DNA of 64,000 nucleotides from Streptomyces sp. NBC_00620. Lineage in GTDB: Bacteria; Actinomycetota; Actinomycetes; Streptomycetales; Streptomycetaceae. The position numbers and the translations under genes are program-made. The notes under the pieces were generated by a model, which saw nothing but the letters and a program-made list of their open reading frames with translations, was not told the origin of the DNA and did no database searches. The DNA lies in assembly GCF_026341825.1 (NCBI RefSeq), contig NZ_JAPENY010000001.1:2418001-2482000 (forward strand), given 5' to 3'. Positions 20,330-26,053 of the stretch are shown piece after piece (the stretch's first letter is position 1; every line of letters begins with the position of its first letter).

Positions 20330-20475
20330 GACTGGCCCACGGTGCGAAGCAGTCGTCCCAGTACGCCGAAGGGGCGGCGTACTCCGACGTGGTGTCGGGG
20401 CACGCCGCCCTGGGGCGGGACGAGTTGCGGGAGGTGGCCCGCGCTTTCATGGCGGTTACTTCGGGTCGCTGTTGA
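20314..20475 (+). pseudogene. Possible gene fragment (coding-like, no start codon)
   Basis: A frame from a stop at 20311 to TGA at 20473-20475 reads LAHGAKQSSQYAEGAAYSDV then VSGHAALGRDELREVARAFM. Third codon positions are almost all G or C, as in real Streptomyces genes. It has no ATG, or GTG with a ribosome-binding site, before its conserved-looking part, and it overlaps the 3' end of the convergent ABC permease gene. It may be the remnant of a gene cut off by rearrangement. Confidence 0.3.
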
Positions 20476-21241
20476 ACTTCGAGGTCGACCAGCGGTAGCC
20501 GAGCGCCGTGAGAGCCAGGCACCAGGCGATGGCGATCCACCCGTTGTTGCCGATCTCGGTTCCGAGGAGCAGGCCGCGCAGGGTTTCGATGGCCGGGGTG
20601 AACGGCTGGTACTCGGCGATCGGCTGGAACCAGCCGGGCATGGTGTCGGCCGGGATGAAGGCGCTGGAGATGAGCGGGAGGAGGATCAGCGGCATCGCAC
20701 TGTTACTGGCCGCCTCGGCGTTCGGGCTGGCCATGCCCATTCCGACCGCGATCCAGGTGAGCGCCAGCGAGAACAGCGCGAGCAGCCCGAACGCCGCCAG
20801 CCACTCCAGGGCGGTTGCGTCCGTGGAGCGGAAGCCGATGGCCACGCCGACGGCACCGACGAGGACCAGGCTGGCGAGTACCTGCAGCACGCTGCCGACG
20901 ACGTGCCCGATGATCACGGAGCCGCGGTGGATGGCCATCGTGCGGAAGCGGGCGATGACACCCTCGGACATGTCGGTGGCGACGGACACCGCGGCGCCGA
21001 TCACGGTGGAGCCGATGGTCATCATCAGGATGCCCGGGACGATGTAGGCGATGTAGTCGGAGCGGTCGGCGCCGCCGATGCCCGCGCTCATCACGTCGCC
21101 GAAGATGTAGACGAAGAGCAGCAGCAGCATGATCGGCGTGAGCAGCAGGTTCAGGGTGAGGGACGGGTAGCGGCGCGCGTGCAGGAGGTTGCGGCGCAGC
21201 ATCGTGTTCGAGTCGCGGACGGCGAGCGAGAAGGTACTCAT
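20456..21241 (-). CDS. ABC-2 type transporter permease
   Basis: This membrane subunit (261 aa) is of the ABC-2/DrrB type, with about six predicted helices (for example LTLNLLLTPIMLLLLFVYIFG and IAYIVPGILMMTIGSTVIGAA). Export of a drug, lipid or peptide is the usual role. It overlaps the ATPase gene by one base (TGATG), so the two are translationally coupled. The ABC-2 motif region FIPADTMPGWFQPIAEYQPFTP is present. The operon also carries a DUF4097 gene, and a divergent regulator probably controls it. Confidence 0.88.
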   Translation of the reverse strand: MSTFSLAVRDSNTMLRRNLLHARRYPSLTLNLLLTPIMLLLLFVYIFGDVMSAGIGGADRSDYIAYIVPGILMMTIGSTVIGAAVSVATDMSEGVIARFRTMAIHRGSVIIGHVVGSVLQVLASLVLVGAVGVAIGFRSTDATALEWLAAFGLLALFSLALTWIAVGMGMASPNAEAASNSAMPLILLPLISSAFIPADTMPGWFQPIAEYQPFTPAIETLRGLLLGTEIGNNGWIAIAWCLALTALGYRWSTSKFNSDPK

Positions 21242-22200
21242 CAGACTGCTTCCTTCGGCTGGTTGGGGACCTTGGTGGTGCCGGTCAGGGCGAAGAACAC
21301 GTCGTCGAGGTCGGGGGTGTGGACTGTGAGTTCGTCGGCCTCGATGCCGGCCGAGTCCAGCCGGTCGAGGATGGAGCGCAGTTCGCGCTGACTGCCGTCG
21401 CTGAGAATCTGCAGCGCCAGTGCTTCGTCGTCGCGGGTGACCTCGCGCAGTGCGGAGGCGGCGGACTGGTAGGCGGCCGGGTCGGTGAAGCGGAGCCGGA
21501 CGTGTCCGCCGGGGATCAGTCGCTTCAGCTGCTCGGCGGTGCCCTGGGCGGCGATCCTGCCGTCGTTCAGCACCGCGATGTGGTCGGCGAGCTGGTCGGC
21601 TTCCTCGAGGTACTGGGTGGTGAGGAAGACGGTCACCCCGTCGGAGACCAACTCGCGGATGATCTGCCACATGTTGTGCCGGGCGCGCGGGTCGAGGCCG
21701 GTGGTCGGTTCGTCGAGGAAGATGATCCGCGGGTTGCCGACCAGGGTCATGGCGATGTCCAGGCGGCGCTTCATGCCGCCGGAATAGGTGGAGGCCGGCT
21801 TCTTCGCCGCGTCGACCAGGTCGAAGCGTTCCAGGAGTTCGGCCGTGACCCGCCGTCCCTCGCTTCGGGTCAGGTGGTGCAGGTCGGCCATGAGGAGCAT
21901 GTTCTCCTCGCCGGTGATGAGGCCGTCGACGGCGGAGAACTGGCCGGTGACGCCGATTGCGGCGCGTACGGCTTGGGGGTGGGTGGCGAGGTTGTGGCCG
22001 CCGATGTGGATGTCGCCGGTGCCGGGGTCTGCGGTGATGAGGGTGGAGAGGATCTTGACGGCGGTGGTCTTGCCGGCGCCGTTCGGGCCGAGCAGGGAGA
22101 AGACCGTGCCGGTCGGCACCGTCAGGTCGACGCCGTCGAGGACCGTCTTGTCGCCGTAGGACTTGCGCAGCCCGTTCGCGGCGATGGCCGGGTTGGTCAT
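21241..22200 (-). CDS. ABC transporter ATP-binding protein, DrrA type
   Basis: This nucleotide-binding subunit (319 aa) has Walker A GPNGAGKTTA, the ABC signature YSGGMKRRLDIAM, Walker B IIFLDEPTTGLDPRAR and an H-loop region (FLTTQYLEEADQLADHI). The C-terminal extension of about 90 residues is typical of DrrA-like drug-export ATPases. ATG with AAGGAG seven bases upstream. It is the middle gene of DUF4097-ATPase-permease. The substrate is unknown. Confidence 0.92.
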   Translation of the reverse strand: MTNPAIAANGLRKSYGDKTVLDGVDLTVPTGTVFSLLGPNGAGKTTAVKILSTLITADPGTGDIHIGGHNLATHPQAVRAAIGVTGQFSAVDGLITGEENMLLMADLHHLTRSEGRRVTAELLERFDLVDAAKKPASTYSGGMKRRLDIAMTLVGNPRIIFLDEPTTGLDPRARHNMWQIIRELVSDGVTVFLTTQYLEEADQLADHIAVLNDGRIAAQGTAEQLKRLIPGGHVRLRFTDPAAYQSAASALREVTRDDEALALQILSDGSQRELRSILDRLDSAGIEADELTVHTPDLDDVFFALTGTTKVPNQPKEAV

Positions 22201-22229: not shown

Positions 22230-22895
22230 CTAGAGGCTGCGGGCGGTGATGTCGCCGCGGGAGGTGGTGGCGCGGATGTCGAGTCCGGCGGTGCCGTCGT
22301 TCTTGAGGGCGTTGCTGACGCGGCCGTAGTCGGTGCCGGCGTCCAGGGCTGCGGACACGCCTGCAGCGGCCGTGACCGAGATGGCGCCGGACTGGGTGCG
22401 GAGCACGACCGTGCCGCGCACGGCCTCGGTGATCCGGATGTCGCCCCGCGCGGTGCTGATCTCTCCGGGACCGCCGAGCCGGCCGACCTCGACGTCGCCG
22501 TCGGTCGCGGTGAGGCGCAGGCTCGCCGCCTCGTCGATCTTGATCCGGCGGTACGCGCCCTCGAAGACGACATCACCCAGGCGCCCGACGCCCCGGAGCT
22601 CGGCGGCGGAGGCCTTCCCCTCGACGCGGGAGCCGGCGGGCAGTTGGACGGTCACCTCGACCGATCCGGAGGCGCCGAACAACTGGTTCTTCGCCGCCGG
22701 GGCCCCGATGTGCAGGATCCCGTCGGCGTAGGCGACCGTGATCTGCTCCGCCGCCTTCACATCACGGCCCTTGGAGGCGTCCGTGGGCAGCACCTCGACG
22801 GTGGTGTCGGCCCGGTCGGCGGCGATGAACTGGACGCGTCCGGCGGGGATGTCCAGGACGGCGGAGACCGGGGCGGGGGTGTCGAACTTCTGCAT
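22230..22895 (-). CDS. DUF4097 family beta-helix-like protein
   Basis: This 221-residue protein has repeating short beta-strand units (for example VEVGRLGGPGEISTARGDIR and VLRTQSGAISVTAAAGVSAA) typical of DUF4097 or adhesin-like right-handed repeats. No signal peptide or membrane segment is visible. It is often found with ABC exporters or stress operons and its role is unknown. The ATG at 22895 has AAGGAG six bases upstream; the other Met at 22916 lies on that site and is less likely. First gene of the operon behind the CGTTGC motif cluster. Confidence 0.8.
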   Translation of the reverse strand: MQKFDTPAPVSAVLDIPAGRVQFIAADRADTTVEVLPTDASKGRDVKAAEQITVAYADGILHIGAPAAKNQLFGASGSVEVTVQLPAGSRVEGKASAAELRGVGRLGDVVFEGAYRRIKIDEAASLRLTATDGDVEVGRLGGPGEISTARGDIRITEAVRGTVVLRTQSGAISVTAAAGVSAALDAGTDYGRVSNALKNDGTAGLDIRATTSRGDITARSL

Positions 22896-22960
22896 GGTGC
22901 TCTCCTTCATCTGCATCGCGCGCTCCTTTGGACCGCGTCGTTTCCGATGACGGAAAAGCT

Positions 22961-23086
22961 ACGTTGCATTCATGGATCCTTCAATGTGTTCGTTGCGCTC
23001 AATTGCTATCAGTGCAGGTGAATGCCGGGAAATCGTTGCAACGATCCTCAAGGCTAACGCAACGAAAGTCGCCTGTGCGTTGCAAT
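22961..23086. promoter_or_regulatory. Operator cluster of CGTTGC motifs between DUF4097 and the HTH-MarR regulator
   Basis: The motif appears as ACGTTGCATT (22961), CGTTGCGCTC (22991), the perfect palindrome ATCGTTGCAACGAT (23032-23045), AACGCAACG (23057-23065, inverse orientation) and CGTTGCAAT (23078). The stretch is also AT-rich for this genome. It lies between divergent genes and is a good candidate for the binding region of the regulator encoded at 23142. Confidence 0.75.
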
Positions 23087-23141
23087 GAATTGAAGGTGAA
23101 CGCTATGCTGGAGGTATCAAAGGGGAACGAAGGAGATCGCA

Positions 23142-23891
23142 ATGCCGGGAGGCAGGCTCACTCAGCAGGAACGCCAGCAGATCGCGTTGGGGCTGGCCGA
23201 CGGCCTCGCCTACGCGGAGATCGCCAGGCGTCTCGACCGCCCGACCTCGACGATCACGCGTGAGGTGATGCGCAACGGCGGCCCCACCGCCTACCGCGCC
23301 GAGGTGGCCCACCGCGCGACTGAACGCCGTGCCCACAGGCGCACGCAGGCGGCGCCCCGAGGTGCGGAGGCGCCGGCGCAGGCCCACGGACGCGATGCCG
23401 AGGCCGTGCGCGAGTTCGAGGAGACGTTCACGACCGTCATGATGGGCTCGGGTATGCCCACGATGATGTCCCGGGTGATGGCCAGCCTCACCGTCACCGA
23501 CACCGGCAGCCTCACCGCGGCCGAACTCGTCCAGCGTCTCCAGGTCAGCCCGGCGTCCGTCTCCAAGGCGATCGCGTTCCTGGAGAGCCAGGGCCTGGTC
23601 CGCCGGGAACGCGACGAGCGCCGACGTGAGCGCTATGTCGTCGACGACGACATCTGGTACCAGTCGATGATGGCCAGCGCCCGGTCCACCGCCCAGATCG
23701 TCGAGATCGCACGGCAGGGCGTCGGTGTCCTCGTTCCGGGCACCCCGGCCGCCACCCGCCTGGAGAACGTCGCCCGCTTCCTCGACTTCGTCAGCGAGGC
23801 CATCGCCCGCGCCGCGGAGCAGGCCCGCGAGATCCTCCAGACGAAATCCGCAACGACCTCGGACGGAGCTGCCGAGCCGAGTTCGGAGTAG
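23142..23891 (+). CDS. Regulator with IS30-type HTH_38 domain fused to a MarR/GbsR winged helix
   Basis: The protein has 249 residues and two DNA-binding parts. Residues about 5-45 (LTQQERQQIALGLADGLAYA then EIARRLDRPTSTITREV) match the helix-turn-helix of IS30-type transposases. Residues about 90-200 form a MarR/GbsR-like winged helix (LTAAELVQRLQVSPASVSKA, IAFLESQGLVRRERDERRRE). Its ATG has AAGGAG upstream. It diverges from the DUF4097-ABC operon across a cluster of CGTTGC motifs, so it probably represses that operon and itself. The fusion is uncommon but seems intact. Confidence 0.82.
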   Translation: MPGGRLTQQERQQIALGLADGLAYAEIARRLDRPTSTITREVMRNGGPTAYRAEVAHRATERRAHRRTQAAPRGAEAPAQAHGRDAEAVREFEETFTTVMMGSGMPTMMSRVMASLTVTDTGSLTAAELVQRLQVSPASVSKAIAFLESQGLVRRERDERRRERYVVDDDIWYQSMMASARSTAQIVEIARQGVGVLVPGTPAATRLENVARFLDFVSEAIARAAEQAREILQTKSATTSDGAAEPSSE

Positions 23892-23912: not shown

Positions 23913-24500
23913 CTACAGGTTCCCCATCGGCTCGATGTCGATCTTCACGGGGGTGCCCCAGATGCGCAGCACCTCGTAGTCCGTGAACTCGTGGATCAGG
24001 CGGTAGGCCATGCCCGGGCGGGGGGTCTTGCGCTCGGCGGCGAGGTAGCGCTCGGCCTCGATGCGGTCGCGGCGCGGGGTGCCGCAGAGCTGCCACGCTT
24101 GGCCGTTCCAGACTTCCGGGAGCCAGCGCTGCTGGGGCTGGGGGCGGTCTTCGCGCAGGCCGTAGCGGGACTTCGTGCGCTCGGGGGCCTCGTCGGGGCC
24201 GGGTCCACGGCCGTGCGAGAAGGAGCCGTTCACCTGGGAGCGGCGGGCGGCGCGGCGGCGGGTCTCGCACAGCAGGCAGAGGTCGGCGGCGGCCTCGTCG
24301 ACCGGGCCGTTCGGGTGCTCGGAGCAGCGGGTGGTGGGCGCGGCCGTGGTGACCGTCTCGTCGAGCAGGTCGAGGGCCCGCTTCAGGTCCGCCTTGATCT
24401 CGTGCAGCTTCGCGTCGGGGGTGTCGGCGTTCAGCGCGTCGCCGTGCTCGCCCAGCACACGCAGGGCGCGGCCGAGAGCGGTGAGCTGTGCGTGGTTCAC
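23913..24500 (-). CDS. Hypothetical protein translationally coupled to the PTS gene
   Basis: The product has 195 residues and is not recognised. The first about 55 residues look helical (LTALGRALRVLGEHGDALNA, LHEIKADLKRALDLLDETV). Then comes a Cys/His cluster (CSEHPNG...CLLCETRRR) that may bind zinc. The C-terminal part has aromatic residues and the block YLAAERKTPRPGMAYRLIHE. The GTG start overlaps the end of the PTS gene by four bases (GTGA), so it belongs to the MurNAc operon transcript, although no functional link is known. Confidence 0.6.
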   Translation of the reverse strand: MNHAQLTALGRALRVLGEHGDALNADTPDAKLHEIKADLKRALDLLDETVTTAAPTTRCSEHPNGPVDEAAADLCLLCETRRRAARRSQVNGSFSHGRGPGPDEAPERTKSRYGLREDRPQPQQRWLPEVWNGQAWQLCGTPRRDRIEAERYLAAERKTPRPGMAYRLIHEFTDYEVLRIWGTPVKIDIEPMGNL

Positions 24501-26053
24501 GGTGTTCGGTTCCCTCCCCGGGCGTTTTCCTGACTGTCAGAAGCGTCGCACACACCACTGACAGTGCCGTCGACAGAGGCAGAGGCAGAGGCAGAGGCAG
24601 AGGCACCAGCACTAGCACCGGCACCGGCCTCAGTACCGGCACCGGCACCGAGGCCGCCTCTCACAGCCGGCCCGAGACCGAAGACGTACGTCGCCCCGAA
24701 GCCGACGGCATACCCGGTCAGCAGCCCGCCCGCGTAGATCGCGGCCGTCATCGCCGGCCCCCCGCTTCCTGCCAGCAGCGGGAACAGCGCCCACCCCGAC
24801 GGCCCGATCGCCGTCGACCCCACCTTGTCCCCGAGCATCGCGAAGAAGCCGACGAAGGCGCCGCCCGCCGCCCCGCCCGCGCAGGCCGTCAGGAACGGGC
24901 GGCCGAGGGGGAGTGAGACGCCGTAGATGAGGGGTTCACCCACGCCCAGCAGCCCCGCCGGGAGCGCCGACTTGATCGTCGTACGCATGGACTGGTCGTG
25001 GCGGAGGCGGACGTAGACCGCCAGGGCCGCGCCGACCTGGCCCGCGCCCGCCATCGCCAGGATGGGCAGCAGGACCGTGTAGCCCTGCTGCTCGATGAGG
25101 GTGGTGTGGATGGGGATGAGGGCCTGGTGCAGGCCGAGCATGACGAGGGGGAGGAAGAGGCCGCCGAGGATCAGGCCCGCGAAGGCGCCGGTGGTGGAGA
25201 GGAGCCAGTTCGCGCCGGTGCCGATGGCGGAGGACAGCTCGCCGGCCGCGTACATGAGGGCGTACAGCGTGACCAGGCCGGTGAGCAGGACCGTGAGGGT
25301 GGGGGTGAGCAGGACGTCCAGGGCCTCCGGGACCCAGCTGCGGCACCACTTCTCGACGTACGTGCCCAGGAGCGCGGCGGCCAGTGCGCCGAGTACGCCG
25401 CCCTGGCCCGGTGCCAGCGTCATCCCGAACGCCGTCACCTTCGCGACCCCCGCGTACACGATGACCGCCGCCACCGCGCCGCCCAGGATCGGGGTGCCGC
25501 CGAACTCCTTCGCCGTGTTGTAGCCGACGAAGACGGCGATCAGCGCCATGAAGCCGGAGGCGATGGCGGCGAGGGCGGGGGTGATCGCGTCCAGCCGGCC
25601 CAGGTTGATCAGCAGGCCGTTGAGGCCCGCGATGATTCCGCAGCCGATGAGGGCGGGGATCAGGGGGACGAAGATGTTCGCGACGCGGCGCAGCAGGAGT
25701 TTGCCGGGGGTGGCGTTGCGCTGCCGTCCCGCTTCCTTCAACTCGGCGCCGCGCGAAGCCAGTTCATCGGCTGTCGTTGCAGCTGATGCCGTCGTCGTCA
25801 GCAGCGCCTCGAACTCCGGGGTCACGCGGGCGACCGTGCCCGGGCCCAGGACGATCTGGTACGTCTCGTCGTCCGTGACCAGGCCGAGTACGGCGGGGAG
25901 GGCTCGCAGGGCCTCGTCCTGGACCAGGGTCCGGTCCCGCAGGCCCACGCGCAGGCGGGTCATGCAGTGGGCCACGGAGGTGATGTTCGCGGGGCCGCCG
26001 AGGAGGGGGAGCAGGGCGGCCGCGGTGGCGGTGGGGTCGTTCGGAGTGCGCAC
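24497..26053 (-). CDS. murP: PTS transporter subunit EIIBC, probable N-acetylmuramic acid permease
   Basis: This phosphotransferase transporter (518 aa) has an EIIB domain with phosphocysteine Cys30 in SVAHCMTRLRV, then an EIIC domain with about ten membrane helices (from FVPLIPALIGCGIIAGLNGL to GLLTGYAVGFGATYVFGLGP). The GEPLIYGVSLPL motif of glucose-superfamily EIIC is present. It directly follows murQ (16 bp), which points to MurNAc uptake with phosphorylation. No EIIA is encoded nearby, so a shared EIIA must serve it. The C-terminus carries a low-complexity Ala/Ser/Gly tail with a hexanucleotide repeat. The GTG start has only a poor ribosome site. The substrate is inferred from context. 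Confidence 0.82.
   Translation of the reverse strand: MRTPNDPTATAAALLPLLGGPANITSVAHCMTRLRVGLRDRTLVQDEALRALPAVLGLVTDDETYQIVLGPGTVARVTPEFEALLTTTASAATTADELASRGAELKEAGRQRNATPGKLLLRRVANIFVPLIPALIGCGIIAGLNGLLINLGRLDAITPALAAIASGFMALIAVFVGYNTAKEFGGTPILGGAVAAVIVYAGVAKVTAFGMTLAPGQGGVLGALAAALLGTYVEKWCRSWVPEALDVLLTPTLTVLLTGLVTLYALMYAAGELSSAIGTGANWLLSTTGAFAGLILGGLFLPLVMLGLHQALIPIHTTLIEQQGYTVLLPILAMAGAGQVGAALAVYVRLRHDQSMRTTIKSALPAGLLGVGEPLIYGVSLPLGRPFLTACAGGAAGGAFVGFFAMLGDKVGSTAIGPSGWALFPLLAGSGGPAMTAAIYAGGLLTGYAVGFGATYVFGLGPAVRGGLGAGAGTEAGAGASAGASASASASASVDGTVSGVCDASDSQENARGGNRTP
24575..24604. repeat. Hexanucleotide microsatellite (AGAGGC)5 in the PTS gene
   Basis: Five exact copies of AGAGGC on the plus strand encode the Ser-Ala repeat near the C-terminus of the EIIBC protein. 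The six-base unit means gain or loss keeps the frame. Confidence 0.85.

Follow-up and report, generated by a model that had tools for sequence, protein, structure and literature searches.

A regulator gene in Streptomyces sp. NBC_00620 raises the question of what a transposase-type helix-turn-helix (HTH) does on a MarR-type protein, and which of the two DNA-binding parts reads the cluster of CGTTGC words lying just upstream. The locus was analysed within a window of 64,000 nucleotides (G000:C2:2418001-2482000, where G000 is the own genome of 9.56 Mb). The closest named relatives of the regulator were found in Streptomyces.

The fusion of an IS30-like HTH_38 to a MarR winged helix, proposed in a sequence-only reading of this DNA, was upheld by Pfam, residues 5-45 matching HTH_38 (E 4e-15) and residues 104-160 matching MarR_2 (E 9e-11, 42.2 bits against a cut-off of 27), both above curated cut-offs. 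The MarR model also matched the regulator (35.8 bits against a cut-off of 24.6). Residues 6-66 shared 43% identity over 61 aa with residues 59-119 of the E. coli IS30 transposase, and the N-terminal HTH_38 was homologous to the end-binding region of IS30 transposases; Nagy et al. 2004 reportedly found that end binding by the IS30 transposase depends on its second HTH. Structure prediction, put forward earlier as a check, agreed with this layout. The AlphaFold2 model (46 sequences, mean pLDDT 83) displayed a three-helix HTH, a helix at residues 47-67 and a MarR-like domain at residues 86-233, with long helices flanking the winged helix (169-197 and 202-233) and a low-confidence linker (69-77). 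The best Foldseek matches in the PDB were 4nb5 and 1ku9, chains of about 150 residues that we take to be of MarR/GbsR type (TM-score 0.82 for 4nb5, by target length), while no IS30-named protein occurred among the best 50 of 1195 matches. Solved relatives of the full-length regulator were searched by sequence at E <= 0.01, and none was found.

The protein thus passed the curated winged-helix cut-off and had the long-helix fold of MarR/GbsR regulators. With the IS30-family model NF033563 it reached 13.8 bits, well short of the cut-off of 80; the best 25 of 36 Pfam families listed included no catalytic domain, and none of five inverted-repeat pairs between 22850 and 24350 bracketed the regulator gene or held GCAAC in both arms. 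An IS30 element or remnant at the locus was rejected, as no catalytic domain and no bracketing inverted repeats were found. A link to defence was also set aside, PADLOC giving the regulator weak winged-helix matches (best E 6.6e-6) and DUF4097 none. Both domains, full length and an upstream array, the features by which the HTH_38-MarR fusion family of actinomycetes is defined here, were all present in the window regulator. No description of such a fusion was found in a literature search that had most subscription papers outside its reach.

The five CGTTGC motifs counted earlier, one of them a perfect palindrome, were recovered as six words at five places (22962+, 22991+, 23034+, 23038-, 23059- and 23078+), with 23034+ and 23038- forming the palindrome CGTTGCAACG (23034-23043). 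These six words of the 225-bp divergent region compared with a shuffle mean of 0.25, and none of 5000 dinucleotide shuffles reached six; a chance cluster was rejected by the shuffles and by conservation over 100 loci. Across the whole window CGTTGC occurred at chance level (43 found, 43.0 expected). Two further words lay within the regulator gene (23272- and 23850-), the latter, at 23850-23855, being the single CGTTGC inside the gene's 3' end. The words formed part of a larger operator array of elements E0 to E8 (Table 1), and position 22961, at which the earlier reading began, falls within its left element. The DUF4097 gene is divergent from the regulator and is followed by a DrrA-like ATPase gene and then an ABC-2 permease gene; its start may be at 22895, since many homologues begin at MQKF.

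Table 1. Features of the regulator locus, in window positions
Feature	Position	Strand	Basis
ABC-2 type permease	20459..21241	-	domain search
DrrA-type ABC ATPase	21241..22200	-	drrA model 304.7 bits, slightly under cut-off 312.45
DUF4097 (toastrack) gene	22230..22916	-	Pfam 1e-9
Operator array E0-E8, single unit of ~168 bp, ~nine half-sites	22941..23109	.	94 distinct aligned loci; sequence-only model R1
E0, inverted repeat TTTC-N8-GAAA, arms near-invariant	22941..22956	.	alignment
Likely DUF4097 promoter (TTGAAG, 17 bp, TAGCTT), within E2-E1	22956..22984	-	sequence and conservation; inference
E1, half-site TGAATGCAACG (plus-strand CGTTGC 22962-22967)	22962..22972	-	sequence, alignment
E2, gCAAca element, degenerate in the window (TCAATG)	22981..22986	+	alignment
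E3, half-site (plus-strand CGTTGC)	22991..22996	-	word scan, alignment
E4, GCAGGT, nearly invariant, not a GCAAC word	23014..23019	+	alignment
E5, palindrome ATCGTTGCAACGAT	23032..23045	.	word scan, alignment
E6, half-site TAACGCAACG	23055..23064	+	word scan, alignment, matrix
E7, CGTTGCAATG, overlapping the likely regulator -35 box	23078..23087	.	word scan, alignment
Likely regulator promoter (TTGCAA, 18 bp, TATGCT)	23080..23109	+	sequence; -10 box absent in 20/22 scored regulator-less arrays
E8, half-site GTGAACGC, retained in 21/22 scored orphan arrays	23096..23103	+	alignment, orphan-array scoring
HTH_38-MarR regulator gene, 249 aa	23142..23891	+	Pfam; AlphaFold2 model mean pLDDT 83
IS30-transposase-type DNA-binding domain, residues 6-66 (HTH_38 5-45 and helix 47-67)	23157..23339	+	IS30 transposase alignment; family conservation
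MarR winged helix, residues 104-160, in MarR/GbsR-like fold (~residues 86-233)	23451..23621	+	Pfam; Foldseek

The half-site took the forms tAAYGCAACG (E6), TGAAYGCAACG (E1, minus strand) and GTGAACGC (E8). E0 follows closely after the likely -10 box of DUF4097, on its downstream side, and may be a leader element or a site for the MarR wing. As E0 and E4 are conserved yet not GCAAC-like, HTH_38 alone does not account for the whole array.

The array was conserved as a unit among close relatives of the regulator (family A). Related loci numbered 110, of which 30 (own copy included) came from a search of 199 genomes of the genus and 80 were named. Word counts, restricted to the 100 loci with DUF4097 within 300 bp, gave 430 CGTTGC words, or 4.3 per locus, against 0.27 in shuffled sequence and 0.11 at flank density. 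Alignment of these 100 loci (94 distinct) displayed one conserved array with invariant cores. Among the 98 scorable loci of 104 distinct ones, with search windows preset by the analyst, spacing was 29 bp between E1 and E3 (97/98), 43 bp between E3 and E5 (97/98) and 20 bp between E7 and E8 (96/98). More distant regulators (family B, 20 proteins, 40-57% identity) mostly kept the order of elements by eye, least so at L131 and L132, and DUF4097 was found in none of their 20 stretches. Strict helical phasing across families is not claimed, family A being rigid within those search windows and the E6-E7 distance varying in family B.

R1, a model of the array built from sequence alone, was trained on 35 linked arrays from the 56 of 110 loci that passed an over-strict regular expression. 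Because of this pre-selection the invariance within A1 is partly a product of selection, unselected conservation being that of the 94-locus alignment. Run on 121 genomes of the genus with stricter filters, which may have lost weak family B arrays, R1 returned 139 whole or partial arrays, spread over 81 genomes. Arrays were found in 81 of the 83 genomes with the regulator (best E < 1e-45) and in none of the 38 without it; G063 was counted as having the regulator although its best copy was truncated, its arrays remaining. This co-occurrence is partly trivial where arrays adjoin regulators, which does not hold for arrays without a regulator. In the own genome R1 found 22941-23109 as the sole array at E <= 0.01, so that action in trans is not indicated there.

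Regulator-like genes in the array-less genomes G096 and G102 both lacked HTH_38. G096 and G160 look like deletions that removed the array too, and G102 had neither array nor HTH_38 upstream; since G096 looks like a deletion, it and G102 cannot be counted as clean losses of the domain. G171 had HTH_38 and six GTTGC/GCAAC words, but the gene is split across frames. Two apparent deletion remnants were also observed: the MarR part directly adjoins the tail of DUF4097 in L237 and that of the permease in L239, and in both the array is missing along with HTH_38.

At least one array without an adjoining regulator gene occurred in 30 of the 83 regulator genomes, against none of the 38 others. Left out of the 30 were L202 (weak score) and L168, L171 and L195 (truncated regulators), while two loci with short regulator remnants were kept, namely L199, where the homology covers residues 17-51, and L178, where an HTH-tail-like frame is visible by eye. 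The genomes are related and were treated as independent, so exact tests overstate significance. Forty stretches around seemingly unaccompanied arrays, a subset of such arrays, were fetched. Orphan arrays also preceded further DUF4097 genes. Others lay directly before genes of GtrA-like membrane proteins with no DUF4097 between (L181, L186, L190, L191 and L192; two of the five calls above the Pfam cut-off, three just below), before P450 genes (L196, L197, L198, L199 and L201, with shorter, weaker-scoring arrays of family B type, L199 keeping an HTH stub) and before a beta-lactamase-like gene (L200).

In linked arrays the last half-site, E8, runs into the likely -10 box of the regulator (TATgcT), a promoter for which orphan arrays have no such use. 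Among orphan arrays (22 of 24 scorable), E8 was kept in 21 and the -10 box (TANNNT) in two, against 88 of 98 for the -10 box in linked arrays (Fisher 2e-13, a value that is too small as the scored rows are related). E8 being kept while the -10 box was lost, the half-site seems to be selected for itself, and the array looks to be one unit even where it would serve a single gene. Among side observations, the regulator had decayed with the array kept at L168, L171 and L195 (homology only to residues 1-57, 1-113 and 1-28, respectively). Three whole arrays lay within 6.4 kb in G024 (L169:3472-9847), only the last adjoining a regulator and two preceding DUF4097 genes. Two facing, overlapping regulator copies, each with a partial array, were seen at G041:C241:4139-5402 and look like an inverted duplication.

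DUF4097, rather than the exporter, was the steady partner in family A. Control of a DUF4097-ABC exporter had been proposed for this locus; judged from sequence, the divergent DUF4097 gene is likely controlled by the regulator, while the exporter proved only the commonest gene behind DUF4097. Among the 56 named loci for which 4 kb of upstream sequence was covered and DUF4097 lay nearby, a DrrA-type ABC ATPase followed DUF4097 in 35 and was missing there in 21. Of 155 DUF4097 places, 142 had an ORF behind, 96 being ABC ATPases and 46 falling outside the ABC cluster, with overlapping loci counted twice and some of the 46 probably false ORFs. The exporter was weakened as a target by both counts. 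In each of the next downstream clusters (7, 6, 4, 4 and 4 members) one member was identified, as alpha/beta hydrolase, beta-lactamase-like, ketopantoate-reductase-like, S9 peptidase and GtrA-like, respectively. In the more distant family B, the divergent gene encoded an enzyme (beta-lactamase-like hydrolase or P450), an ABC ATPase or a membrane protein. A DUF4097-DrrA pair is labelled drug resistance in the lunaemycin cluster, in the excerpt of PMC9866976, where DUF4097 adjoins a DrrA-type ATPase as it does in the window. Together with that pair, the efflux, P450 and beta-lactamase-like neighbours suggest a detoxification role in antibiotic-producing actinomycetes, and the ligand, given efflux, P450 and hydrolase neighbours, is probably a toxic or antibiotic-like compound.

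It is quite probable that HTH_38, with a specificity inherited from IS30 ends, reads the array, that MarR dimers repress both promoters and that a ligand releases them. A MarR/GbsR-type protein would have gained its N-terminal end-binding HTH from an IS30-family transposase, and the captured HTH_38 would have kept its specificity, binding half-sites of IS30-end type (GTSAAYGCAACR). About nine such half-sites of fixed orientation and spacing would make up the array of about 168 bp that spans both divergent promoters. Judging from the MarR fold, dimers of the MarR part would present HTH_38 domains in pairs, and these pairs would jointly and cooperatively fill the array and keep the DUF4097 and regulator promoters shut until the complex was released by a ligand, a small molecule that the MarR part probably senses. 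The array as a unit would act in trans in part of the species, through its copies before other genes of the same genome.

Repression is itself the probable mode of action, because the -35 boxes of both likely promoters lie in GCAAC-type elements (E2 and E7) and the -10 boxes at E1 and E8, so that a filled array should block both. The protein might instead be an activator, with the array as an upstream activating region for DUF4097, as the likely DUF4097 promoter has most of the half-sites on its upstream side and orphan arrays keep the far end, E8, some 120 bp away. This is unlikely, given that the likely -10 and -35 boxes of the two promoters coincide in part with E1-E2 and E7-E8, as suits repression, and that most characterised MarR proteins repress.

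Conservation of HTH_38, on which the sequence-only reading had staked its claim, was borne out, as it was the most conserved part of the protein in both families. Mean majority fractions in family A (110 proteins) were 0.97 for HTH_38, 0.86 for MarR, 0.84 for the C-terminus and 0.82 for the linker; those in family B (20 proteins) were 0.80, 0.73, 0.58 and 0.49, respectively. MarR-only relatives were represented by 25 loci (L212-L236), one each from 25 of 31 genomes. Their 25 upstream regions held one GTTGC/GCAAC word in total, and TTGTGAA, part of a palindrome like TTCACAAATTTGTGAA, occurred in 23 of them. The MarR-only paralogue of the own genome (L002, 42% identity) has such a palindrome between itself and an ABC gene. 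Having another palindrome and almost no GCAAC, the MarR-only relatives indicate that the operator change tracks the presence of HTH_38. MarR/GbsR regulators (4nb5, 1ku9, L002) share the winged helix and long helices with the regulator, and L002 resembles the window locus in its divergent ABC ATPase gene; the regulator differs by its extra N-terminal IS30-type HTH and by an operator of about nine half-sites over 168 bp, with arrays repeated at other genes, in place of one short palindrome. SCO7424, in the excerpt of PMC12838073, also belongs to the MarR proteins but is laid out differently.

It is improbable that the CGTTGC sites are recognised through the winged helix of the MarR part, with HTH_38 only helping dimers to stack or adding non-specific affinity, even though the perfectly palindromic E5 and the near-palindromic E7 have the usual form of a MarR operator and MarR proteins normally contact DNA via the wing. 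The contrary evidence is the scarcity of the word and the other palindrome in MarR-only relatives, the better conservation of HTH_38 than of the wing, the non-palindromic half-sites E1, E6 and E8, and a motif that equals the IS30 end. The match of regulator and cluster claimed earlier gained backing from the 4.3 words per locus over 100 loci and from this IS30-end motif. As they match motifs of IS30 ends, the CGTTGC words of the array most likely belong to the HTH_38 half; that the two DNA-binding parts read different elements, as suggested earlier, is conjecture.

The array half-site AAYGCAACR was the subterminal motif of IS30 ends. E. coli IS30 ends (GGTCAACGCAACA and GTCAATGCAACA, also written TGTAGATTCAATTGGTCAACGCAACA and TGTAGATTCAATCTGTCAATGCAACA) have AAYGCAAC in common with the array half-sites, with the C/T variation at the same place. 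A matrix of 35 array E6 sites, run on the 1221-bp IS30, ranked the two ends first and second (15.95 and 15.21 bits, the next site scoring 8.36), and none of 20000 shuffled IS30 ends scored as high. Ends were resolved in 16 of 26 IS30-like loci examined (not in L205, L207, L210, L241-L244, L264, L266 and L267, of which L241-L243 gave no starting HTH). GCAAC was present at the ends of 12 of the 16 elements, at both ends in 11 and at one in L262. The GCAAC-bearing elements came from actinomycetes, lactobacilli and proteobacteria, with a similar position across the three phyla. The other four lacked an exact GCAAC (GCAYC in L209 and L247, GCAGC in L265, none in L269). With look-alikes collapsed by eye, nine of 12 element kinds bore the motif (binomial 4e-10 at an estimated 5% chance per kind). 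Published ends of two Leifsonia IS30-family elements, in the excerpt of PMC2516522, contain GTTGCAACA and CGCAACAC and agree with the motif. According to the excerpt of PMC7780238, IS30 ends hold a subterminal site for the N-terminal domain of the transposase, and an N-terminal transposase fragment protects end bp 9-35, a range that covers this motif. IS30-family transposases (E. coli IS30; the actinobacterial IS30-like elements L203, L208, L245, L246 and L261) thus share the HTH_38-type domain with the regulator, and their recognition motif GCAAC, which lies around bp 21-25 from the element ends, matches the motif of its array; the regulator differs in having a MarR sensor domain and no catalytic domain found, and its sites form a fixed array at promoters instead of lying at element ends.

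A coincidence, in which HTH_38 shares just its fold with the transposase domain by homology and both settings happen to contain the same frequent 5-bp word, would fit the shortness of GCAAC and the four of 16 resolved elements without it, but is very improbable because the match exceeds the word (AAYGCAACR, with its C/T variation at the same place), the motif holds a similar position in elements of three phyla and the two IS30 ends rank first and second in a whole-element scan. A structured RNA or attenuator in place of a protein-binding array is scarcely credible and was rejected, as none of the 17 pairs that RNAalifold draws in the conserved region has a compensatory change, the single Rfam match up to E 1 scored 18.9 against a gathering score of 33, and E2-E7, lying between two likely promoters, would stay untranscribed.

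A DNA-binding HTH captured once seems to underlie the family of HTH_38-MarR regulators. In a tree of 63 columns, with 20 of 36 inner branches open, 21 regulator HTHs formed one side of a branch (97/99) opposite 18 IS30 HTHs, a grouping that fits a single fusion. Among 396 genomes across the phylum the regulator (E <= 1e-30) was found in 12, ten of the own genus and two of another family of the class. By eye, the actinobacterial loci from another family held a recognisable array beside a P450-like gene (L258) and a partial array (L259). Further named genera with the regulator were Kitasatospora, Actinomadura, Streptosporangium, Microtetraspora, Planotetraspora, Micromonospora, Actinopolymorpha and Peterkaempfera. 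The end-binding HTH of the IS30 family was thus probably captured once, in actinomycetes, as far as these sequences tell.

We lean slightly towards a wider reading, in which capture of the IS30 domain would have brought the end code of a transposon into host regulation, with a transpososome-like assembly free of catalysis and a portable operator of about 168 bp recruiting detoxification genes in trans; the unrelated genes so recruited would be the DUF4097-exporter, P450, beta-lactamase-like and GtrA-like ones. FHY3/FAR1 and SETMAR, eukaryotic transposase-derived factors as presented in excerpts of the literature, resemble the regulator as host proteins using a transposase DNA-binding domain, and the regulator differs from them in being bacterial, IS30-derived and MarR-fused, with arrays of end-like sites. 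It would be a bacterial case in which a host regulator that captured the DNA-binding domain of a transposase apparently kept both the domain and the sequence recognised by it, so that the origin of the regulatory code could be read directly from sequence. The operator is also unusually large and rigid, and present as a whole unit at several genes.

Beyond the regulator, a gene on the minus strand (24497-26053), PTS permease-like by eye, carried an Ala/Ser/Gly-rich C-terminal tail coded by short GGCAGA-like repeats (window ~24540-24640).
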